Shown: positions 30,433-40,211 of the stretch, piece by piece
Layout of the letters: every line of letters begins with the position of its first letter
Position numbering within the stretch: position 1 is the first letter of the stretch
NCBI RefSeq assembly: GCF_010894455.1
Contig: NZ_JAAIXY010000016.1
Location: forward strand, 124,001 to 188,000
Origin: Myxococcus eversor
GTDB lineage: Bacteria > Myxococcota > Myxococcia > Myxococcales > Myxococcaceae
Length of the DNA: 64,000 nucleotides
Direction of reading: 5' to 3'
Notes under the pieces: generated by a model
What the model saw: only the letters and a program-made list of their open reading frames with translations
The model's database searches: none
Told to the model about the DNA's origin: nothing
Program-made: the position numbers and the translations under genes

Positions 30433-30517
30433 GGGGACGTAGAGCGTTACGGCAGACGCGCGGGCCTGTAGAGCCCGAGCCCGACAGGGCCTGCTGGGTT
30501 CAACTCCCAGCGTCCCC
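30433..30517 (+). tRNA. tRNA-Tyr(GTA), class II
   Basis: A perfect 7-bp acceptor stem (GGGGACG/CGTCCCC), D-stem GCGT/ACGC, anticodon loop CTGTAGA (GTA), a long variable hairpin GCCC-GACA-GGGC as in bacterial tRNA-Tyr, and T-arm with TTCAACT. Discriminator A; CCA is not encoded. Confidence 0.88.
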
Positions 30518-30567
30518 ATGCTCCGCACGAGCAGGGCTGCATCATCCAAACCCAGACGTAATTTTCC

Positions 30568-30637
30568 AGGGGTATAGCTCAAAGGCAGAGCACTCGCTTG
30601 ATAAGCGGGTGATCCCGGTTCGACTCCGGGTACCCCG
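30568..30637 (+). tRNA. tRNA-Ile(GAT)
   Basis: Acceptor strand AGGGGTA faces TACCCCG with an A-G mismatch at the first pair. D-arm GCTC/GAGC, anticodon arm CTCGC/GCGGG with loop TTGATAA (GAT), T-arm CCCGG/CCGGG with TTCGACT. The variable loop has four bases. Confidence 0.82.
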
Positions 30638-30644
30638 ACTCCAT

Positions 30645-30716
30645 GTTGGCCGAAGGCGATTGGTGAGCCACCGGGATGTGACCCCGGGGAAGAGGGTTCG
30701 ATTCCCTCCGGTCAAC
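30645..30716 (+). tRNA. tRNA-His(GTG)
   Basis: Seven acceptor pairs with one G-U, D-stem GGC/GCC, anticodon stem CCGGG/CCCGG with loop ATGTGAC (GTG), T-arm GAGGG/CCCTC. Discriminator C is as in tRNA-His, but the base before position 1 is T, so the usual G-1 identity base is not encoded. Confidence 0.8.
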
Positions 30717-30795
30717 CTGACAGTCCCAGCTCTCTGACAACTGAATCGTCGTGGTGAATGCACGCCGCCTGCTCACACAGGGGTGGCGGCAAAAT

Positions 30796-30865
30796 GCCTC
30801 CGTAGCTCATTGGTAGAGCATCCGCCTCTTAAGCGGACGGCGAGGGTTCGAATCCCTCCGGAGGT
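30796..30865 (+). tRNA. tRNA-Lys(CTT)
   Basis: Acceptor GCCTCCG/CGGAGGT (G-U first pair), D-arm GCTC/GAGC, anticodon stem TCCGC/GCGGA with loop CTCTTAA, T-arm GAGGG/CCCTC with TTCGAAT, discriminator A. The 79 bases before it hold nothing I can name. Confidence 0.88.
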
Positions 30866-30883
30866 ACTCGAAGCAGCAGCAAC

Positions 30884-30953
30884 GCGGGTGTCGTCCAGCG
30901 GCAGGATGGCGGTTTCCCATACCGTCGACACGGGTTCGAATCCCGTCACCCGC
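30884..30953 (+). tRNA. tRNA-Gly(CCC)
   Basis: Acceptor GCGGGTG/CACCCGC is perfect. D-arm GTCC/GGAT, anticodon loop TTCCCAT (CCC) on a 5-bp stem with one G-U, T-arm ACGGG/CCCGT with TTCGAAT, and discriminator T as expected for glycine. Confidence 0.86.
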
Positions 30954-30973
30954 TTCACATGTGTCACTTCCAT

Positions 30974-31044
30974 ACCGGAGTCGTCTAATCAGCAGGATGG
31001 CGGATTCTGACTCCGCAGGCGCAGGTGCGATTCCTGCCTCCGGT
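30974..31044 (+). tRNA. tRNA-Gln(CTG)
   Basis: Acceptor ACCGGAG/CTCCGGT, anticodon stem GCGGA/TCCGC with loop TTCTGAC (CTG), T-stem GCAGG/CCTGC. The T-loop is TGCGATT, with G where position 55 is normally T, so the usual pseudouridine site is absent. Confidence 0.82.
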
Positions 31045-31064
31045 TCTCTCTTCACGCAGCACAT

Positions 31065-31135
31065 TCCCCGGTAGCTCAATGGCAGAGCGCGCGGCTGTTA
31101 ACCGCGAAGTTGGGGGTTCGAGTCCCTCCCGGGGA
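31065..31135 (+). tRNA. tRNA-Asn(GTT)
   Basis: Acceptor TCCCCGG/CCGGGGA, D-arm GCTC/GAGC with GG, anticodon stem CGCGG/CCGCG with loop CTGTTAA, T-arm with TTCGAGT, and discriminator G as in asparagine tRNAs. Confidence 0.88.
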
Positions 31136-31154
31136 GCTTGCAACAGACGCAACT

Positions 31155-31223
31155 GGCCAGTTCCGCCCGGGGTGGCAACGGTCTGCAAAACCGTTTGGGA
31201 CGGGTTCGACTCCCGTATTGGCC
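31155..31223 (+). tRNA. tRNA-Cys(GCA)
   Basis: Acceptor GGCCAGT/ATTGGCC with one G-U, D-stem GCC/GGC, anticodon stem ACGGT/ACCGT with loop CTGCAAA, T-arm ACGGG/CCCGT, and discriminator T, the cysteine identity base. Confidence 0.86.
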
Positions 31224-31234
31224 TCACTTTCATT

Positions 31235-31306
31235 GCCGACCTGGCGTAGGTGGTCCGCGCGCCCGTCTGAAGAGCGGGAGGACTCGGTTCGATTCCGAGG
31301 GTCGGC
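31235..31306 (+). tRNA. tRNA-Phe(GAA)
   Basis: Acceptor GCCGACC/GGTCGGC, D-stem GCG/CGC with loop containing GG, anticodon stem CCCGT/GCGGG with loop CTGAAGA, T-arm CTCGG/CCGAG, discriminator A. Confidence 0.86.
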
Positions 31307-31330
31307 ACTTCGCAGCACGTTTCACTTCAT

Positions 31331-31397
31331 AGGCTGCGCTCCGGGAGCAGCTTGGACTCCAAATCCGAGCGCGCGGGGTTCAACTCCCTGGCGGCCT
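31331..31397 (+). tRNA. tRNA-Trp(CCA) with minimal D-arm
   Basis: Acceptor AGGCTGC/GCGGCCT, anticodon arm TTGGA/TCCGA with loop CTCCAAA, T-arm CGGGG/CCCTG, discriminator G. Only 14 bases separate the acceptor and anticodon stems. They form GCTC-CGG-GAGC, so positions 8-9 are missing and the D-loop has three bases. Confidence 0.78.
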
Positions 31398-31406
31398 GCT
31401 CGTTTC

Positions 31407-31479
31407 GCCCCTGTAGCTCAACTGGTAGCAGCACCGGTTTCGTAAACCGGGGGTTGTCGGTTCGAACCCGACCGGGGGC
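31407..31479 (+). tRNA. tRNA-Thr(CGT)
   Basis: Acceptor GCCCCTG/CGGGGGC, D-stem GCT/AGC with GG in the loop, anticodon stem CCGGT/ACCGG with loop TTCGTAA, T-arm GTCGG/CCGAC with TTCGAAC, discriminator A. Confidence 0.86.
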
Positions 31480-31506
31480 ACTTCACGCAACACGCAGTCG
31501 TCACAT

Positions 31507-31577
31507 GGGTTCGTGGCTCAATGGGAGAGCACTCGGTTTGCACCCGAGGGGTTCCGGGTTCGAGTCCCGGCGGATCC
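31507..31577 (+). tRNA. tRNA-Ala(TGC)
   Basis: Acceptor GGGTTCG/CGGATCC carries the G3-U70 pair that marks alanine tRNAs. D-arm GCTC/GAGC, anticodon stem CTCGG/CCGAG with loop TTTGCAC, T-arm CCGGG/CCCGG, discriminator A. It is the only member with U34. Confidence 0.88.
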
Positions 31578-31584
31578 ACTTCAT

Positions 31585-31657
31585 GCCCTTGTAGCTCAGT
31601 GGATGAGAGCGCACGGTTCCGAACCGTGAGGTCGCAGGTTCAATCCCTGCCAGGGGC
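31585..31657 (+). tRNA. tRNA-Arg(CCG)
   Basis: Acceptor GCCCTTG/CAGGGGC, D-arm GCTC/GAGC, anticodon stem CACGG/CCGTG with loop TTCCGAA, T-arm GCAGG/CCTGC with TTCAATC, discriminator A. Confidence 0.87.
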
Positions 31658-31681
31658 ACTCGCTTCAGCCAAAGCCATTCC

Positions 31682-31755
31682 GCTTCCGTAGCTCAGTGGA
31701 TTCAGAGCAGGCGCGTCCTAAGCGCGAGGTCGCAGGTTCGAATCCTGCCGGGAGC
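31682..31755 (+). tRNA. tRNA-Arg(CCT)
   Basis: Acceptor GCTTCCG/CGGGAGC, D-arm GCTC/GAGC, anticodon loop GTCCTAA (CCT) on GGCGC/GCGCG, where the outer G-G does not pair. T-arm GCAGG/CCTGC, discriminator A. A T-rich run (31769-31775) follows. Confidence 0.83.
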
Positions 31756-31776
31756 ACACACGTTTCACGTTTTTTC

Positions 31777-31846
31777 TGCGGGGAGAGGCTGGTGCCTCAC
31801 CGGGCCTCATAAGCCTGGCCTCCAGGGTTCGACTCCCTGCTCCGCA
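31777..31846 (+). tRNA. tRNA-Met(CAT)
   Basis: Acceptor TGCGGGG/CTCCGCA with a normal T1-A72 pair, so probably an elongator type. D-stem GAGGC/GCCTC with the four-base loop TGGT, anticodon stem CGGGC/GCCTG with loop CTCATAA, T-arm CAGGG/CCCTG. Confidence 0.82.
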
Positions 31847-31855
31847 ACTCTTCAT

Positions 31856-31927
31856 GCACGCCGAGCCAGCTGGAGACGGCGACGGTCCCACACACCGTTT
31901 TCGCCGGGTTCGATCCCCGGGGCGTGC
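31856..31927 (+). tRNA. tRNA-Val(CAC)-like with C33
   Basis: Acceptor GCACGCC/GGCGTGC is perfect, D-stem GCC/GGC, anticodon stem ACGGT/ACCGT, T-arm CCGGG/CCCGG. The loop is CCCACAC: anticodon CAC, but position 33, almost always U, is C. Confidence 0.8.
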
Positions 31928-31947
31928 ACTCGTATTTCCGTGGTCTT

Positions 31948-32020
31948 GCCGGTGTAGCCCAATGGGTAGAGGTGCCAGGTCGAGAACCTGGAGGATGCGG
32001 GTTCGACTCCCGCCACCGGC
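31948..32020 (+). tRNA. tRNA-Leu(GAG)-like with C33 and short variable loop
   Basis: Acceptor GCCGGTG/CACCGGC, anticodon stem CCAGG/CCTGG, T-arm GCGGG/CCCGC. The seven-base loop TCGAGAA places GAG at 34-36 with C at 33. The variable loop has only five bases, although leucine tRNAs are normally class II, so amino-acid identity is uncertain. Confidence 0.75.
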
Positions 32021-32076
32021 ACTGTCGTCGCAGTCCGTAGCCCGCAGTCGCAAGTCAGCAGGACATCCCGAAGTCC

Positions 32077-32149
32077 GTCCGCGTAGCCCAAACGGGAGAG
32101 GCCGCCGGCTCAAACCCGGCACAGTGCGAGTTCGACTCTCGCCGCGGAT
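32077..32149 (+). tRNA. tRNA-Leu(CAA)-like with short variable loop
   Basis: Acceptor GTCCGCG/CGCGGAT (G-U first pair), D-stem GCC/GGC, anticodon stem GCCGG/CCGGC with loop CTCAAAC, T-arm GCGAG/CTCGC. The variable loop is five bases (ACAGT) instead of the long leucine arm. Confidence 0.78.
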
Positions 32150-32170
32150 ACAACCGAAAGGCGTTGCGTC

Positions 32171-32713
32171 ATGGAGACGCTGGTTCTCAGTCAGTCCTTC
32201 GAGCCCGTCGCGCGGATTCCCTGGCAGCGCGCGGTGATGCTCATCTTCCAGGGCAAGGTCGAGGTGGTCGAGGAGTACGAGGACCGCTTCGTGCGCTCGG
32301 TGACGGTGGAGATCCGCATGCCCTCCGTCATTCGTTTCTTCCGCGGGCTGCGCAAGGGCCCCAAGGGCGTGAAGTTCAGCCGGGAGAACGTCTACCTGCG
32401 AGACCGCTGCCGCTGCCAGTACTGCGGCCTCAAGGTGTCTCGCGCTGAGGCGACGTATGACCACGTCCTGCCTCGGGCCCAGGGTGGCCGCACGTCCTGG
32501 GACAACGTCGTCATCGCGTGTGTGCCCTGCAACCAGAGGAAGGGCAACCGGACTCCGGAGCACGCGAAGATGGCGCTGCGCTGCGCCCCGGTGAAGCCCA
32601 AGAAGCTGCCGGACGCGATGCACCTGACGTTCGTCTTCGAGCAGGGCATGCCCATGTCGTGGGCCAAGTTCCTGAGGGACGTGGCGTACTGGCATGGCGA
32701 GTTGGAGGATTGA
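32171..32713 (+). CDS. HNH endonuclease embedded in the tRNA array
   Basis: The 180-residue protein has a basic N-terminal half with a K-G-P-K-G-V-K patch and a C-terminal HNH/zinc module. That module holds C-R-C-Q-Y-C-G, then Y-D-H-V-L-P-R-A-Q-G-G, W-D-N-V-V-I-A-C and C-N-Q-R-K-G-N-R-T-P. The His-Asn-Asn catalytic pattern and two Cys pairs are intact, so a metal-dependent nuclease is expected. The gene starts 21 bases after the last leucine tRNA-like unit and is followed by three serine tRNAs, so it is probably on the same transcript. Related HNH proteins are common in bacteria and usually of unknown target; a role in cutting or trimming array RNA is speculation. Confidence 0.88.
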   Translation: METLVLSQSFEPVARIPWQRAVMLIFQGKVEVVEEYEDRFVRSVTVEIRMPSVIRFFRGLRKGPKGVKFSRENVYLRDRCRCQYCGLKVSRAEATYDHVLPRAQGGRTSWDNVVIACVPCNQRKGNRTPEHAKMALRCAPVKPKKLPDAMHLTFVFEQGMPMSWAKFLRDVAYWHGELED

Positions 32714-32744
32714 GGTCCCAGGACGGTGCGCCTGGAGGGGATGA

Positions 32745-32784
32745 GGAGGTCCGCCAGAGGCGGCCTCCCGCCCATGGACCTCCC
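32745..32784 (+). other. nested inverted repeats after the HNH gene
   Basis: GGAGGTCC and GGACCTCC form an 8-bp inverted repeat, and CCGCC-AGA-GGCGG nests inside it. The two hairpins share bases and cannot both form fully. No T-run follows. It may be a processing or termination signal between the HNH gene and the serine tRNAs. Confidence 0.4.
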
Positions 32785-32826
32785 CGCGAGCCGGCAGGCG
32801 GGTGCGCTGCTGCCGGCGACTTTTCT

Positions 32827-32911
32827 GGAAGACCGACGCTGGAGGCCGGCGGCCCGTTTCGAAAACGGTGCGGGTGCATGACGCGCTCGGGGTTCGAGTC
32901 CCCTGTCTTCC
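32827..32911 (+). tRNA. tRNA-Ser(CGA), class II
   Basis: Acceptor GGAAGAC/GTCTTCC, anticodon loop TTCGAAA (CGA) on a 4-bp stem with a C-T next to it, a long variable arm containing GCG/CGC, T-arm GGGG/CCCC with TTCGAGT, and discriminator G typical of serine. Confidence 0.82.
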
Positions 32912-32921
32912 GCTGTGACTT

Positions 32922-33005
32922 GGAGCATGCGGGCCGGGTGGCCGGCCGCCTGGCTGGAAACCAGGAGAGCCCTTCGGGGCTCGTGGTTCGACTCCACCGT
33001 GTTCC
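32922..33005 (+). tRNA. tRNA-Ser(GGA), class II
   Basis: Acceptor GGAGCAT/GTGTTCC with two G-U pairs, anticodon stem CCTGG/CCAGG with loop CTGGAAA, a strong variable hairpin GAGCCC-TTCG-GGGCTC, T-arm GTGG/CCAC, and discriminator G. Confidence 0.86.
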
Positions 33006-33022
33006 GCTCGCTTCACATGTTT

Positions 33023-33109
33023 GGAAGTTGGACTGGCGATGGCGCCAGGCCCCGCTGCTACCGGGTGCGAGCCGGCCTTCCGGCTTGAGGTTCGAGTCCT
33101 CCGACTTCC
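33023..33109 (+). tRNA. tRNA-Ser(GCT), class II
   Basis: Acceptor GGAAGTT/GACTTCC, a six-pair D-arm CTGGCG/CGCCAG, anticodon stem CCCG/CGGG with loop CTGCTAC, variable hairpin AGCCGG-CCTT-CCGGCT, T-arm GAGG/CCTC, and discriminator G. Confidence 0.84.
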
Positions 33110-33164
33110 GCTTCCCTCCGGCCTCGGGCCAGGGGATTCCGGCCACCCGCCGGGATTGCGCGCT

Positions 33165-33222: not shown

Positions 33223-36042
33223 ATGGCGACGAGGAAGAGCGAGGACCAGGAGCGACTCATCGACCGGGACCTGACCGCGTTGGCCCGAGAGGGTCGGCTG
33301 CCGGCCGCGCATGGCGTAGACGCCGCGGTGACGGAGGTTCTGGGACTGCTGACGCGCGGTGGCAAACACCCGCTGCTGGCGGGAGACCCCGGCGTGGGCA
33401 AGAGCGCGCTCGTGCAGGAGGTGGCGCGCCGCATCGCCGAGGGACGCGTGGACGCGGAGCTGACGCAGTCGCGTCTGGTAGAGGTGTCCGTCGCCAACAT
33501 CCTCGCGCGCAGCACCCAGCGACAGGCCGCGGAGAGCTTCGAGGAGCTGCTGGCCCACCTGGCGCGGCACCCCTGTCCCATCGTCTACATCCGAGACCTG
33601 CCGGCCGCGCTGGGCGGGCCCCTGGCCCCCGTGGCCGTGCGCGCGCTGCGCACCGGAGGCCTGCGCTTCATCTTCGAGACAGAGCCCAAGCGCGTGCAGG
33701 AGCTGCTGCGCTCCGACGAGGCGCTCGCGGAGCGGCTGCACCTGCTCCCCCTGCACGAGCCCCCGCTGGAGAAGGCGCGCTGGATACTGGGCCGGGTGGC
33801 GGAGGAGCTGGAGCGCGAGCTGCGCCTGCCCATCGACCCGGCCGCGTGCGATTTGGCCCTGCGGCTGTCGTCCAAGTTCCTGCTGGCGCAGCGCATGCCG
33901 CGCAAGGCCATCGAGCTCTTGAAGGAGACGGCGGCGGAGGCCGCGAGCGCGGCCAAGGACCACGTCGGTCCCGAGGACGTGCTCACCCGCTTCTGTTCCG
34001 CCACGCGCCTGCCGCGCTTCGTGGTGGACGACGCCATGCCGTTGGACCTGGAGGAGACGGAGCGCTTCTTCGGAGAGCGGCTGCTCGGCCAGACGGACGC
34101 GGTGGGCGCGGTGCTGCGCTCGGTGGCGCTGCTCAAGGCGGGGTTGAACGACCCGCGCCGGCCGCTGGGCGTGTTCCTGTTCGCCGGCCCCACGGGCGTG
34201 GGAAAGACGCAGCTCGCGAAGCTGCTGGCGGAGTACCTCTTCGGCTCGGCGGACAGGCTGGTGCGCCTGAACATGGCGGACTACCCCAACGACGGTGACG
34301 AGAGCGTGCCCTTCGGCGCGTCCTGGGCCCCGGCGCTGGAGACGCGTCGCGGAGAGCTGAGCGCGCTCCTGGACGGCAAGGTGTTCTCCGTGCTGCTGCT
34401 CGACGAGTTCGAGAAGGCCGCGCGCAGCGTGCACGACCGCTTCCTCCAGCTCTTCGACGAGGGCACCTTCGTCAACGGCGCGGGCGAGGTCGTCTCGTGC
34501 AACAACACGCTCATCGTCGCCACGTCCAACGTGGGCGCGGAGGTGTACCGGGAGCCCGCCATGGGCTTCGCGGGCACCAAGCGCGCGGACGAGATGGTGT
34601 CGGAGGTCGACCGCCGCATCGGCGAGGCCTTCCGCCCCGAGTTCCTCAACCGCTTCGACGCCATCTGTCACTTCCAGCCCCTGTCCAAGGTGGACATCCG
34701 CAAAATCGCGCAGCGCGAGGTCGGCCGCGTGCTGGAGCGAGAGGGCATCCGCGCGCGCTCCCTGGACGTGGAGGTGACGCCCGAGGTCGTCGACCGGCTG
34801 GTGGAGCGCGGCTACTCGCCCCAGTTCGGCGCGCGCTACCTCCAGCGGGAAATCGAGAAGACGCTCACCGCGGCGCTGGCCGTGGAGATTGCGCGCAAGC
34901 CGCTGCCCCCTGGCACCCCCGTGCGCGTGGAAGCACGCCCCGGAGGCCGGGTCATCGCGGTGGCCGAGCCCGCCGCCCCACTGCCCTCCCCCACCGCGCA
35001 GCTGCTGTTGCCGTCCGCACGGGCGACGCCGGTGAAGCGGCGGCTGGACCGCAAGTCGCTGCTGGTGGAGATGGACCGGCTGGTGGGCAAGGCCCGCTCG
35101 CTGGCGGCCTCCGCTGGGCGGCCGGAGATGGAGGAGCGCCGCACGTCCCTGCTGACGGAGACGCAGGCGCCCAACCTCTGGGACGACCCCACGCACGCGG
35201 CGGATGTCATCCGGGCCTTCCGGACAGTCGAGGCCCACCTCAACGAGATGGAGCGACTGGAGGCCGCGTGTCTCTTCGGGCGGCGCCTGGTGCGCGAGGC
35301 GAAGAACGAAGTGCAGCTCGCCTCCGCGGCCCGGCAGGTTGAAGACGTCGCGCGCGAGGTGCAGATGGCGGAGGCGCTCCACGCCTCCGGCTCCACCACC
35401 CTGGACAATGAAGCGCTGGTGGACATCTGCGCGAGCGACTCGGCGGAGACACAGGAGGCGTGGGTGCAGGAATTGGCCACCATGTACCTGGGCTGGGCGC
35501 AGCGGCGCGGCTACGAGGCGGTAGCGGTGGCGGAAGCCGACGAGCCGGCCCGCGTCGTGGTGCGCATCGCCGGCCCCGGAGCCTACGGCTTCCTCGCGGG
35601 CGAGGCGGGCATGCACCGACGGCTGGAGGACGAGAAGCGCCAGCGCGCCTATGTCCGCGTGCACCGGGGCGGCGCTCTCTCGGAGGAGGAGCTGGAGCTG
35701 CTGGAGGTGCTGGGCCGGCCCGTGAAGAGCCATGAGGGCACCTATCTCCAGCGCGTGCGCACCGAGGTGACGGTGAAGGACGAGTCCACCGGCCGGGTGC
35801 TGACGCTCACGGGCGCGGGCGAATTGGACGAGCTGAAGGACATCGCCGCTCGCGTGGTGGCCGGACAGGGCGGAAGCACGGACGAGGTGCGGCGCTACTA
35901 CCTGGGCCGCAGCGCGCGGGTGGAGGACCCTCGCACCGGCGCCGGGACTCCTCGCGTGAAGGACGTGCTGCGCGGCGAGCTGGACGTGTTCATCGCCGCG
36001 TGGATTTCGCGCCCGCCGTCGGAGCCCCCGCTGGGGAGCTGA
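33223..36042 (+). CDS. ClpA/B-like double AAA+ unfoldase fused to an RF2-like domain without GGQ
   Basis: The 939-residue protein begins directly with AAA+ module 1 (Walker A G-D-P-G-V-G-K-S at 54-61); no Clp N-domain is present. Module 2 has G-P-T-G-V-G-K-T near 322-329, L-L-L-D-E-F-E-K as Walker B, and a ClpB-type C-terminal subdomain with G-A-R-Y-L-Q-R-E-I-E. From about residue 607 it resembles release factor 2: W-D-D-P in the first helix region, M-Y-L-G-W-A-Q-R-R-G-Y, A-Y-G-F-L-A-G-E-A-G-M-H-R, and V-E-D-P-R-T-G at the end. The peptidyl-hydrolase loop that should read G-A-G-G-Q is S-H-E-G-T-Y-L-Q (about 835-842), so hydrolysis is not expected. It follows the serine tRNAs by 113 bases. I infer recognition of stalled or damaged ribosomes coupled to ATP-driven remodelling. 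Confidence 0.9.
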   Translation: MATRKSEDQERLIDRDLTALAREGRLPAAHGVDAAVTEVLGLLTRGGKHPLLAGDPGVGKSALVQEVARRIAEGRVDAELTQSRLVEVSVANILARSTQRQAAESFEELLAHLARHPCPIVYIRDLPAALGGPLAPVAVRALRTGGLRFIFETEPKRVQELLRSDEALAERLHLLPLHEPPLEKARWILGRVAEELERELRLPIDPAACDLALRLSSKFLLAQRMPRKAIELLKETAAEAASAAKDHVGPEDVLTRFCSATRLPRFVVDDAMPLDLEETERFFGERLLGQTDAVGAVLRSVALLKAGLNDPRRPLGVFLFAGPTGVGKTQLAKLLAEYLFGSADRLVRLNMADYPNDGDESVPFGASWAPALETRRGELSALLDGKVFSVLLLDEFEKAARSVHDRFLQLFDEGTFVNGAGEVVSCNNTLIVATSNVGAEVYREPAMGFAGTKRADEMVSEVDRRIGEAFRPEFLNRFDAICHFQPLSKVDIRKIAQREVGRVLEREGIRARSLDVEVTPEVVDRLVERGYSPQFGARYLQREIEKTLTAALAVEIARKPLPPGTPVRVEARPGGRVIAVAEPAAPLPSPTAQLLLPSARATPVKRRLDRKSLLVEMDRLVGKARSLAASAGRPEMEERRTSLLTETQAPNLWDDPTHAADVIRAFRTVEAHLNEMERLEAACLFGRRLVREAKNEVQLASAARQVEDVAREVQMAEALHASGSTTLDNEALVDICASDSAETQEAWVQELATMYLGWAQRRGYEAVAVAEADEPARVVVRIAGPGAYGFLAGEAGMHRRLEDEKRQRAYVRVHRGGALSEEELELLEVLGRPVKSHEGTYLQRVRTEVTVKDESTGRVLTLTGAGELDELKDIAARVVAGQGGSTDEVRRYYLGRSARVEDPRTGAGTPRVKDVLRGELDVFIAAWISRPPSEPPLGS

Positions 36043-36107: not shown

Positions 36108-39100
36108 CTACTGGTTGATTTGGAGCGCGATGGCGCGGGAGTTGTTGTCCTCGCGCAGCTCCGTCAGCGACTGGTACGGGTCCACGTAGGCGCCCAGGAA
36201 GTAGGCGCCGCCCTGCCCCATCGCATCCATCGGCAACCACGCCGACACGTTCAGCGTCTGCGTGATGCAGTCACCCGGGTTCAGGGCGATGACATTCACG
36301 CCCCCCAGCTCACGCTGGTCCGAGTTGGCGTTGCCGCCAGGGCCCGGCATGGAGGGCTCCGGGGAGAGGTTCGCGTCGAGGGACGAGTAGAGCGACACCC
36401 AGGCCGAGGGGCTTGCCTGCGTACCCTGGTTGCACACGCGCACCGTCGAGGAGAAGGTGTTCCCCTGGAGGATGGAAGCAGGCCCCGTGAGCGAGGTGAC
36501 GACGAGGTCCGGCCTCGTCCCCACTCCGATGAGCCCCTTCACGAAGGTGTTGTTGTCCTCGCGAAGCTCCTGCACCCCGCCGCTCGAGTCGACGAGCGCT
36601 CCCAGGAAAAAGGCGGTCCCCTGACCACCGGGCGGCACGTACGCGTTGGCGGTCGTGCTGCGCGAGATGCACTGGGCCGCGAGCAGGGACGGCACGGACA
36701 CCGAGCCAATCATCACCTGGTCCGCCACCGTCGGCGACGTCGACAGGGAGAGCACATCGTCCAGCGACAGGACCACGTCGACGTACGTGGCGGCGCTGGA
36801 CTGGGTCCCCTGGTTGCACACCGTCACCGTCGTGCTGAAGGACTGTCCCTGCGTCACGCTCGTGGGCGAGGTCATCGCGGTGATGACCAGGTCCGCGCGG
36901 CTGCCCACGCCGATGAGCCCCTTCACGAAGCTGTTGTTGTCCTCGCGCAGCTCCTGCACCGACGCCGGGTCATCGACGATGGCGCCCAGGTAGTACGCCC
37001 CGTCGCCCTGCGCGTCCGGCGGCAGCCACGCGGTGGCACTCACCGAGCGCGTCGCGCACTGCCCCACCGTCAGCGAAGGGATGCTCACGTTCGCGACCTC
37101 GGTCTGGTCTCCCGCGGGATAGCCGGGCCCTGACATCGGCGACAGGACCGCGTCCACCGACAGGAGGAGGCGCGCCTGCGTCGAGGTGCTGGGGGTGGTG
37201 CCCTGGTTGCACACCGTCACGCCGGCGGTGAACGGCTGGCTGATGGACGCGCTCGTGGGCGCGGTCATCGCGGTGATGACGAGGTCCGGCCGATTGCCAA
37301 TGCCGATGGGACCCTTCACGAAGCTGTTGTTGTCCTCACGAAGCTCCTGCACGCTGGCCGGGTCATCGACGATGGCGCCCACGTAGTACGCCCCGTCGTT
37401 CCCCTGCGCGTCGGGCGGCAGCCCGGCCCAGGCCGTCGTCGAGCGCGTCGCGCACTGCCCCGGATTCAGCGACGGCAAGGGGACGTATCCCGCCGGAGAC
37501 TGGTCCGTGGCCGGGGAGCCGCCGGGCCCGTACGGCATCGGCGTCAACACGGTGTCCGTCGACACGTAGATTTGCGCCTGCGTCGAGTAGCTGCTGGTGG
37601 TGCCCTGGTTGCACACCGTCACGGCGGCGGTGAAGGACTGACCATTCTGAAGGACTTGCGGCACGTTCAGCGCCGTGACGACAAGGTCCGGCCGGTTGCC
37701 CACGCCGATGAGGCCCTTCACGAAGACGTTGTTGTCCTCGCGCAGCTCCTGCACGGAGCTCGGGTCATCCACGATGGCCGCCAGATAGTACGCGCCATCC
37801 CCCGTCCCATCCGGCGGCGGAGGACTCCCAGCGAACATGCCACTGCGCGTCAGGCACGCTCCGGCATTCAGCGCGGGCACGGGCATGGAGCCCAGCGGCA
37901 CCTGGTCCAACGGCGGACCGCCGGGGCCAGCCGCCATCGGCGTCAGCGTCGTGTCCGTCGACAGGTAGAGCTGCGCCTGCGTCGAGGGGCTGGACTGGAG
38001 GCCCTGGTTGCAGAACGTCACCGTCGCGGCGAAGGACTGGCTGGAGTTGAAACTCGCGGGCCCGGTCATCGCGGTGATGATGAGGTCCGCACGGCTGCCC
38101 ACGCCGACGAGTCCCTTCACGAAGGCATTGTTGTCCTCGCGAAGCTCCTGCACGGAGGCCGGCTCGTCCGCGATGGCCCCCACGTAGTAGGCCCCTTCTC
38201 CCTGCCCATCCATGGGGAAGTTCACCCAGGCACTCGTGCTGCGAGTCGCACACTGCCCCGGGCTCAGCGAGGGCAGGCCAATCATTCCCAACGGAGCCTG
38301 GTCCGTCGGCGGGGGTCCGCCAGGGCCAGGGCCGGGGGACATCGGCGTCAGCGTCGTGTCCATCGACAGGTAGAGCTGAGCGTTCGTCGAGGAGCTGCTG
38401 GTCGTGCCCTGGTTGCACACCGTCACCGACGCGGTGAAGGACTGACCGGGCGACAGGGTCGGCGGAACGTTCACGTCCGTGACGATGAGGTCCGGCCGGT
38501 TGCCCATGCCGACGAGCCCCTTCACGAAGACGTTGTTGTCCTCGCGCAACTCCTGCACGGAGCTGGGGTCGTCCACGATGGCCGCCAGATAGAACGCGGT
38601 GGCGTCCGTGGGGAACGGCGGAGGCGAAGCCCAGAGGTTCTCTCCGCGCGTCGCGCACTGACCGGGAGCCAGCCCCGGAATCATGATGTAGCCCATCGGC
38701 GACTGGTCACCCGGAGGAGGCCCCATGGGCCCCATGGGCGTCACCGTCGCGTCGATGGAGAGGTACAGCTGGGCCATCGCCGAGGTGCTCTGCGCCGTGC
38801 CCTGGTTGCAGACCGTCACGCTGAACGGAGCGGACTGTCCCGAGCTCAGGCTCGCCGGCGACGTCAACGCGGTGACGATGAGGTCCGGACGGTTGCCCAC
38901 GCCGATGAGGTCCTTCGCATAGGTGTTGTTGTCCTCGCGCAGCTCCTGCACGGAGTTCCCGTCGTCCACGATGCCCCCCAGGTAGAAGGCGCCGGGGCTG
39001 ACGCCCGCGGGAGGCAGCCAGGCCTGGGCGGAACCGGAGCGCGTCACGCACTGCCCCGGGTTCAACAGGGGGACCTGCACCATGCCCACGTCCCGCTGGT

Positions 39101-40211
39101 CCGTGGGAGGCGCTCCCGGGCCCATCTGCGTCAGCACGGTGTCCAGCGACAGCAGGAGCCGCACGGACGTCGCATTGGCATAGGTCGTCCCCTGGTTGCA
39201 GACGCGCGCCTGGACCTCGAAGTTCTGACCATCCGACACACTGGCGGGACCGCGCAGCTCGGTGATGATGAGGTCGGAGCGGTTGCCCACGCCGATGAGG
39301 TCCTTCGCATAGGCGTTGTTGTCCTCGCGCAGCTCCTGCACCGACGCCGGGTCATCGACGATGGCGCCCAGGTAGAACGCCCCGGGGCCCGGCGACGCGG
39401 GCGGTTGCATCGCGTAGACCGAGACAGTGCGGCGGACACAGGCGCCCGCGTTCAGCGTCGTCTGGGTCTGCACCTCGCCAATCGGCGCCTGGTCCGTGGG
39501 AGGAGCGCCCGGGCCGGACGGCGTCAGCACGTTGTCGGTCGACAGGAAGAGCTGCGTGCGGACCGAGGGGACGCTCACGGTGCCCTGGTTGCACACCGTC
39601 ACCGCCACGGTGAAGTACCCGCCCTGCGGCACGCTGGGAGGGCTCGACAGCTCGGTGATGACGAGGTCCGGCCGGTTGCCCACGCCGATGCGCGTCTGCG
39701 CATGGGTGTTGTTGTTCTCGTTCAGCTCCGCCACGGACTGGTTCGCGTCGACGATGGCGCCCAGGAAATAGGCACCGTCACCCTGCGCCGCGGGAGGCAA
39801 CCAGGACGTACCGGGCACGCGGACGTCCGAGCACTGGCCGGCCGACAGGTCCACCTGGAGCGTCTCCTGGCCCGCCAGGGACTGGTCCGTCGGAGGAGGC
39901 ATCGTCGTCAGCGGGGACAGTACGTTGTCCACGGACAGCAGCACCGCCACGCGGGAGCCCCGGTACGCGGGGGCCGTGCCCTGGTTGCAGACCGTCACCG
40001 TCGTGGTGAACGAACTCCCCGAGATGACACTCGCGGGGCCTCGGACGTCCGTCACCACCAGGTCGGGCCCCGGGTTCAGGGAACTCGACGCCGTCTCCAG
40101 TGCGGGTTGCTCCTGTGCGGGCTCTCCACCCGAACAGCCCGTGCCCACACCGACAAACAAGCCCATGACCAGCCACCTCGTGGCGGTCGCGCTCCACTCC
40201 AGCCTCTTCAT
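36108..40211 (-). CDS. CARDB-repeat surface lipoprotein with ten tandem domains
   Basis: The 1367-residue protein has a lipoprotein signal ending G-V-G-T-G-C near residue 26, then ten copies of a domain of about 130 residues. Each opens with G-N-R-P-D-L-V-I-T or a close variant, contains V-T-V-C-N-Q-G-T, then D-Q-x-P-x-G, C-A-T-R-S and A-Y-Y-L-G-A-I-V-D. Each ends V-Q-E-L-R-E-D-N-N or similar. This is the CARDB (cell-adhesion-related) beta-sandwich. Such proteins are exposed on the surface and may bind other cells or matrix. There is no enzyme signature. DNA repeats between units are strong, so copy number may vary by recombination. Confidence 0.9.
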   Translation of the reverse strand: MKRLEWSATATRWLVMGLFVGVGTGCSGGEPAQEQPALETASSSLNPGPDLVVTDVRGPASVISGSSFTTTVTVCNQGTAPAYRGSRVAVLLSVDNVLSPLTTMPPPTDQSLAGQETLQVDLSAGQCSDVRVPGTSWLPPAAQGDGAYFLGAIVDANQSVAELNENNNTHAQTRIGVGNRPDLVITELSSPPSVPQGGYFTVAVTVCNQGTVSVPSVRTQLFLSTDNVLTPSGPGAPPTDQAPIGEVQTQTTLNAGACVRRTVSVYAMQPPASPGPGAFYLGAIVDDPASVQELREDNNAYAKDLIGVGNRSDLIITELRGPASVSDGQNFEVQARVCNQGTTYANATSVRLLLSLDTVLTQMGPGAPPTDQRDVGMVQVPLLNPGQCVTRSGSAQAWLPPAGVSPGAFYLGGIVDDGNSVQELREDNNTYAKDLIGVGNRPDLIVTALTSPASLSSGQSAPFSVTVCNQGTAQSTSAMAQLYLSIDATVTPMGPMGPPPGDQSPMGYIMIPGLAPGQCATRGENLWASPPPFPTDATAFYLAAIVDDPSSVQELREDNNVFVKGLVGMGNRPDLIVTDVNVPPTLSPGQSFTASVTVCNQGTTSSSSTNAQLYLSMDTTLTPMSPGPGPGGPPPTDQAPLGMIGLPSLSPGQCATRSTSAWVNFPMDGQGEGAYYVGAIADEPASVQELREDNNAFVKGLVGVGSRADLIITAMTGPASFNSSQSFAATVTFCNQGLQSSPSTQAQLYLSTDTTLTPMAAGPGGPPLDQVPLGSMPVPALNAGACLTRSGMFAGSPPPPDGTGDGAYYLAAIVDDPSSVQELREDNNVFVKGLIGVGNRPDLVVTALNVPQVLQNGQSFTAAVTVCNQGTTSSYSTQAQIYVSTDTVLTPMPYGPGGSPATDQSPAGYVPLPSLNPGQCATRSTTAWAGLPPDAQGNDGAYYVGAIVDDPASVQELREDNNSFVKGPIGIGNRPDLVITAMTAPTSASISQPFTAGVTVCNQGTTPSTSTQARLLLSVDAVLSPMSGPGYPAGDQTEVANVSIPSLTVGQCATRSVSATAWLPPDAQGDGAYYLGAIVDDPASVQELREDNNSFVKGLIGVGSRADLVITAMTSPTSVTQGQSFSTTVTVCNQGTQSSAATYVDVVLSLDDVLSLSTSPTVADQVMIGSVSVPSLLAAQCISRSTTANAYVPPGGQGTAFFLGALVDSSGGVQELREDNNTFVKGLIGVGTRPDLVVTSLTGPASILQGNTFSSTVRVCNQGTQASPSAWVSLYSSLDANLSPEPSMPGPGGNANSDQRELGGVNVIALNPGDCITQTLNVSAWLPMDAMGQGGAYFLGAYVDPYQSLTELREDNNSRAIALQINQ
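36120..40060 (-). repeat. ten tandem CARDB-coding units, about 390 bp each
   Basis: Units of roughly 390 bp repeat across the gene with near-identical blocks at V-C-N-Q-G-T and L-R-E-D-N-N. Middle units are more alike than the end units, which suggests past duplication by unequal recombination. Confidence 0.85.

Follow-up and report, generated by a model that had tools for sequence, protein, structure and literature searches.

Clp ATPases usually take up their adaptors at the N-domain, and in bacterial release factor 2 (RF2, PrfB) codon reading depends on the tip of helix alpha-5, the SPF loop and a threonine of the codon pocket, the role of the GGQ motif being likewise established. PrfH, the release-factor relative of the RtcB2-PrfH system that acts on damaged ribosomes, keeps GGQ and is without domain 1. 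The chloroplast protein PrfB3 derives from RF2, has lost both SPF and GGQ and has been kept for another task; the PrfB3 study, which also gives the roles of the two motifs, describes it as an unfused RNA stabiliser of a plant organelle, with petB RNA as its ligand and no part in translation termination (PMC5897788). In Myxococcus xanthus there are two ClpPs, with clpP1 essential, and eight clpA/B/C copies, which the pertinent section of that report describes only as less conserved (PMC11423568). Full-text searches of open-access PMC papers retrieved no Clp ATPase that carries a release-factor module, and the fusion of the two described below is apparently undescribed so far within the literature searched.

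The window (the whole 64,000-nucleotide stretch of Myxococcus eversor DNA that was analysed) encodes such a fusion, of 939 aa, at 33223..36042 on the + strand, as delimited by the open reading frame list, profile searches and relatives. The protein consists of a two-ring Clp ATPase without an N-domain, a short linker (residues 581-604; 34963..35034, +) that varies when relatives are compared, and a complete RF2-like module; Pfam, NCBIfam and PDB sequence searches place the double ring over residues ~15-570 and the module over ~620-930. The best-scoring NCBIfam model is TIGR03346 (ClpB), at 288 bits and thus far under its cut-off of 1232. The AlphaFold model of the full length is of moderate confidence (pLDDT 73.6, pTM 0.49), and its closest folds are ClpC first, together with ClpA, in ClpP complexes, with ClpB chains interspersed.

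The double AAA+ Clp core without the N-domain, as recognised in the first-pass annotation, is borne out by Pfam matches to AAA_2 (E 1.8e-34) and ClpB_D2-small (E 2.3e-14) and by the alignment of residues 15-569 to ClpA model positions 173-732, although its D1 is degenerate. Because the ClpA model is matched only from position 173 on, the N-terminal adaptor-binding domain of ClpA and ClpC is missing, and the protein starts at D1. Profile searches and fold matches agree on two tandem AAA+ modules with a D2-small domain, namely ring 1 (D1, residues 8-275; 33244..34047, +), delimited by alignment with the ClpA, ClpB and ClpC of the same genome, and ring 2 (D2, residues 276-580; 34048..34962, +), delimited by alignment with the same Clps and by Pfam. 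Motifs were counted in 23 sequences, comprising the window and 22 of 33 named loci, the other 11 being truncated, broken or near-copies. D1 retains its Walker A, GxxGVGK[ST], in all 23. Its Walker B reads RD instead of DE throughout (23/23), such that D1 lacks the motif set of an active ATPase; the sensor-1 position is an invariant glutamate (E152, 23/23), and no aromatic residue is present in the pore loop of any sequence (KYRG 0/23). D2 carries GPTGVGKT, VLLLDE, TSN, EFLNRF and GAR in every one of the 23, an intact set of Walker A, Walker B, sensor 1, arginine finger and sensor 2, which agrees with the earlier proposal of a motor that uses ATP. By motif alignment, the D2 pore loop is remodelled (residues 364-373; 34312..34341, +) and reads FGxxWA, not GYVG (0/23), with W368 invariant. 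Canonical aromatic pore loops are hence missing from both rings (0/23 each), which makes unfolding by threading uncertain. The same kind of alignment places an [IML]GF tripeptide (residues 447-449; 34561..34569, +) at the site of the ClpP-docking loop of ClpA, as IGF in 10, MGF in 7 and LGF in 6 of the 23 sequences. The ClpA of the same genome has SIGF at these columns; since no clean tripeptide could be placed there in its ClpC-like L007, the alignment of the loop is imperfect. With the D1 Walker B broken, the D2 set intact and the GF tripeptide kept, D2 is probably the motor ring and docking to ClpP appears plausible, while D1 probably binds nucleotide without hydrolysing it. The fusion thus resembles ClpA and ClpC in its two AAA+ rings, D2 ATPase motifs, [IML]GF loop and want of a long M-domain, and departs from them in its missing N-domain, its dead-looking D1, the change of both pore loops and the RF2-like C-terminal module, which is present on its side only. 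With ClpB/Hsp104 it shares the two-ring Hsp100 core, whereas the M-domain coiled coil is absent (a gap in the alignment with the ClpB of the same genome, L008) and the GF tripeptide is, conversely, absent from that ClpB.

The RF2-like half comprises a helical domain 1 with an RF2-type WDD motif (residues 605-725; 35035..35397, +; alignment and AlphaFold) and domains 2-4 (residues 726-939; 35398..36039, +; alignment, AlphaFold and Foldseek). It matches PCRF in Pfam (E 3.2e-14), NCBIfam prfB when searched alone (E 1.4e-24) and RF2 chains of the PDB by sequence (E 2.5e-14). An AlphaFold model of residues 605-939, built from a 22-row alignment, reached pLDDT 76 and pTM 0.69, and Foldseek matched it to 47 PDB chains at E<=0.001, every one a class-I release factor. 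The best match was E. coli RF2 (1gqe, E 3.5e-13), with which VIA-align gave Z 14.6 over 272 aligned positions at rmsd 6.2. Structure prediction of the parts, a check suggested at the outset, therefore assigns a release-factor fold to 605-939 and a ClpC, ClpA or ClpB fold to the full length, as would be expected if the C-terminal part folds like RF2. In a tree of 23 usable release factors (from 31 loci tried), which included 8 of the 22 fusion domains, these grouped as a single long-branched clade that falls on the RF2 side of the split from RF1 (100/100).

When 22 fusion domains were aligned with 12 genuine RF2s, 29 of 122 RF2-conserved columns were found retained in at least 20 of the 22, among them the W of WDD, E-x-G-x-HR, R-x-Y, D-x-RTG and G-x-x-x-x-F (V-G-F near the end). 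The former GGQ loop reads SHEGTYLQ (residues 836-843; 35728..35751, +), exactly as first noted; GGQ occurs in 0/22, its first Gly and its Gln each in 0/22, and its second Gly (G839) in 22/22. The SPF codon-reading loop is deleted in 22/22 (site at residues 802-805; 35626..35637, +; RF2 alignment), the GAGG tip of alpha-5 is lost with none of its positions kept in all 22, and the codon-pocket Thr is present in 0/22. Further, the long helix of domain 3 is ~20 residues shorter than in RF2. The description of the module as nearly full RF2 accordingly stands for the fold, with its match to 1gqe, and fails for the SPF loop and the shortened helix; likewise, the reported loss of GGQ is real and was understated, as SPF, the alpha-5 tip and the Thr went with it. 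With these elements gone, stop codons cannot be read in the known way, nor can peptide be released, the latter as the first-pass annotation had supposed. Its argument from RF2 for docking at the ribosomal A site does not survive, because all three codon-reading elements are lost and binding to the decoding centre can no longer be inherited by argument. Compared with bacterial RF2, then, the fold, the WDD of domain 1 and the retained signatures are alike, and the missing GGQ, SPF loop and GAGG tip, the short helix and the attached motor are not. Structures of PrfH appear low in the Foldseek list (9mq4, E 2.5e-3); the fusion differs from PrfH in possessing domain 1 and lacking GGQ, and neither RtcB nor a PrfH partner turned up next to it among shared neighbours (29 loci) or ORFs judged by eye.

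The RF2-like part was found in 87 of 195 Myxococcota genomes, 86 of 96 within Myxococcaceae, the family of the window, and 1 of 99 outside it, where the family totals assume from the ordering of the genomes that the 88 misses not named individually fall outside the family. A single open frame of at least 856 aa is present in 78 of the 87; the other nine comprise G010, where the frame is broken, G128, which has lost the Clp core, and seven short pieces including G095, several of them at contig edges, as in G144. All 18 same-genus relatives have the fusion, as does G019, a genome of another family. Three of the 18 gave no single clean match, as the frame is broken in the linker in G010, the first 44 residues lie in a different frame in G017 and the fusion is split across contigs in G015. 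The 33 named loci come from Myxococcus, Pyxidicoccus, Corallococcus, Hyalangium, Archangium and MAGs, and in 32 of them the junction is crossed in one frame, the last starting at a contig edge at residue 588; the possibility, raised at the outset, of a join of two genes that are separate in relatives is thereby answered in favour of a true fusion. Pairwise dN/dS, calculated over 45 pairs from those 10 of the 19 same-genus sequences that are of equal length and free of indels, was 0.07 overall, with 0.049 for D1, 0.057 for D2, 0.107 for RF domain 1 and 0.080 for RF domains 2-4. Every domain is under purifying selection, and the RF2-like part evolves faster than the Clp part, yet without decay. 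As the frame runs through intact in 78 of the 87 genomes and selection acts on all domains, the halves function together. A search of 25 genomes, among them the 10 members of the family that lack the RF2-like part, detected a Clp core of the fusion type in G019 and G135 only (1045 and 1081 bits), both of which have the RF2-like part, all other Clps scoring at most 264 bits; the two halves as separate intact genes were seen in none of these 25. The protein is a genuine domain fusion conserved in Myxococcaceae. A record titled Comamonas sp. KCTC 72670 (L070) also holds a Myxococcus-like fusion locus at 92% identity and is likely mislabelled or contaminated.

Upstream of the gene lies, as context, an array of 20 ARAGORN tRNA calls (30433..33111, +), interrupted by a gene for a 180-aa HNH-domain protein (32171..32713, +; Pfam and neighbour clustering) for which no partner role is implied. 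The end of the last tRNA is separated from the fusion ATG by 111 bases, and the array holds one or two calls per isotype, in a genome with 74 tRNA matches in all; only 14 of the 20 pass the Rfam gathering score, so that some look decayed. Among 16 loci scanned, an array occupies the same place in 7 of 7 from Myxococcus, Corallococcus, Hyalangium and Archangium, ranging from 2 calls (Corallococcus) to more than 20, and no tRNA was found in the stretch scanned beside the other nine (8 sister-lineage MAG loci and L056). The expectation that the fusion would recur next to tRNA arrays consequently holds for those four genera and fails elsewhere, and a partnership with the array was rejected given its varying size and its absence from 8/8 MAG loci and L056. 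The array is read as a hotspot, partly decaying, rather than a required part. Across 29 clustered loci, the HNH gene is the only widely recurring neighbour (upstream of the fusion in 19); among NCBIfam models it comes closest to the HNH portions of Cas9d and IscB, with scores that fall far short of the cut-off. No neighbour common to the whole sister lineage was found, for which reason an operon or defence-system reading was rejected. In the fusion, every PADLOC match (DolB and PDC-M37B among others) is confined to the AAA+ rings, and in the HNH gene the matches cover the HNH motif or its surroundings; both sets are therefore read as generic domain matches. The array and the HNH gene accompany the fusion in particular lineages and are not needed as partners; between the loci with the array and the other lineages only the fusion itself is common, bar scattered pairs, and the protein therefore works without a fixed partner gene. 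In G128, where the Clp core is lost and the RF2-like remnant lies in a broken frame, the remnant (L202 5155-9209) sits between xerC and hslV-hslU, another AAA+ protease. This link was not built upon, the remnant being coreless and frame-broken; six of its neighbours, searched in the window and 42 loci, were present only in the G128 locus. On the other side of the fusion, a convergent ORF of 1367 aa (36108-40211) has about ten repeats of the type RPDLVIT...NPGQC...ELREDNN, presumably CARDB repeats.

Genuine RF1 and RF2 are encoded elsewhere in the same genome, L014 carrying both SPF and GGQ, and the RF2-like domain is therefore free for another task. In G010 there is an extra GGQ protein of 212 aa (L055 1560-2195) with an RF1-like score and a PrfH score below cut-off. 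Contig C51 of G000 (L002, L003, L004) bears three tandem Clp-type ATPase genes with frames of 826-1252 aa, apparently the counterpart of MXAN_4823-4825, which together with MXAN_4832 are reported as chloramphenicol-induced Clps (PMC6617876). MXAN_4832 and MXAN_4823-4825 were set aside as the M. xanthus copy of the fusion, the tandem trio being on the separate contig C51. One of the eight M. xanthus clpA/B/C copies may nonetheless be the fusion gene.

These data allow a model, which we favour tentatively and as falling somewhat short of an even chance, of a family-specific Hsp100 variant linked to ClpP, in which the pseudo-factor derived from RF2 recruits clients related to translation. A duplicate of RF2 would have become attached behind ring 2 and later lost the chemistry of termination. 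Within the hexamer, ring 1 would bind nucleotide and hold the assembly together, ring 2 would hydrolyse ATP, and the conserved [IML]GF loop would dock ClpP. As the N-domain is the usual adaptor site and the extra domain is constant, the simplest role for the pseudo-factor would be that of a recruiter or sensor in place of the missing N-domain, and, given its descent from RF2, a client related to translation would be the first to suspect. The motor could thus be brought to its client, for which a ribosome whose A site is empty or unusual, or else a protein that RF2 normally encounters, is the likeliest candidate, and this client would be remodelled or degraded without peptide release. In favour of the model count the intact frame and the selection in every domain, the occurrence of this Clp type only together with the RF2-like part, the D2 motifs and [IML]GF loop in 23/23, the ClpC- and ClpA-like fold of the full length, the retained RF2 fold and the two ClpPs of M. 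xanthus. Against the ClpP-linked model, nothing in the motifs points directly to binding of the ribosome (the alpha-5 tip, SPF and Thr being lost), no operon partner ties the fusion to translation, and both pore loops are gone; a 335-residue domain after D2 may moreover sit near the ClpP face and hinder docking.

An alternate scenario, possible if doubtful, has the RF2 fold reused off the ribosome in the manner of PrfB3, on a structured RNA or a protein client upon which the Clp motor acts. PrfB3, likened here by description and without alignment, lost the same SPF and GGQ and binds petB RNA (PMC5897788), and in the fusion all codon-reading elements are gone with only 29 of 122 RF2-conserved columns retained. 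However, PrfB3 has no fused motor, and the RF2 tertiary fold is kept over all domains, which simple RNA binding would not obviously demand. Equally possible, and equally doubtful, is a remodeller independent of ClpP and of threading, in which ring 2 would use ATP to change shape and so push on the RF2-like arms, for instance to pull the factor or its cargo off a ribosome or to split subunits. The missing D1 pore aromatic, the missing GYVG and the RD of the D1 Walker B, each in 23/23, are as such a remodeller would predict; however, W368, which is invariant and lies two residues ahead of the position normally held by Tyr, might yet act in the pore, and retention of the [IML]GF loop would go unexplained. 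Less probably still, the protein would be a ribosome-targeted AAA+ protease whose tRNA-mimic arm docks in or near the vacant A site without codon reading and feeds ribosomal proteins, stalled factors or the nascent chain to ClpP, again without peptide release. That a whole tRNA-like fold and not a fragment is kept under selection counts for an A-site dock, and the loss of the codon contacts counts against a literal one. It is very unlikely that the fusion regulates termination or stalled elongation by occupying the RF2 site or titrating partners (PrmC, ArfA-like) with ATP-controlled release: the fold without catalysis is nearest to free RF2 (1gqe) and ArfA- or BrfA-type partners do bind RF2 (5mgp and 6szs are among the fold matches), but PrmC acts on the GGQ loop, which is gone together with the decoding contacts. 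An assembly join, chance or a decaying pseudogene, to which the linker break of G010 and the lost Clp core of G128 might point, is refuted for the family as a whole by one open frame in 78 of 87 genomes, passage across the junction in 32 of 33 loci and a dN/dS of 0.07.

As far as the search extended, a putative RF2-like recruiting module on an Hsp100 motor has not been seen before, and the fusion may target the remodelling or destruction of proteins to ribosomes. Should the RF2-like arm have kept its recognition of ribosomes, it would form a direct mechanical link from translation faults to Clp proteolysis; if not, it would be another case like PrfB3, in which an RF2 stripped of both motifs acquired a different task, in this instance while attached to a motor. 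A ribosome-targeted protease, if true, would constitute energy-driven ribosome clearing separate from tmRNA, ArfA/ArfB and RtcB2-PrfH. Most members of the Myxococcaceae, a family of predatory myxobacteria, carry the fusion, and Myxococcus xanthus offers a tractable organism in which to establish its function.
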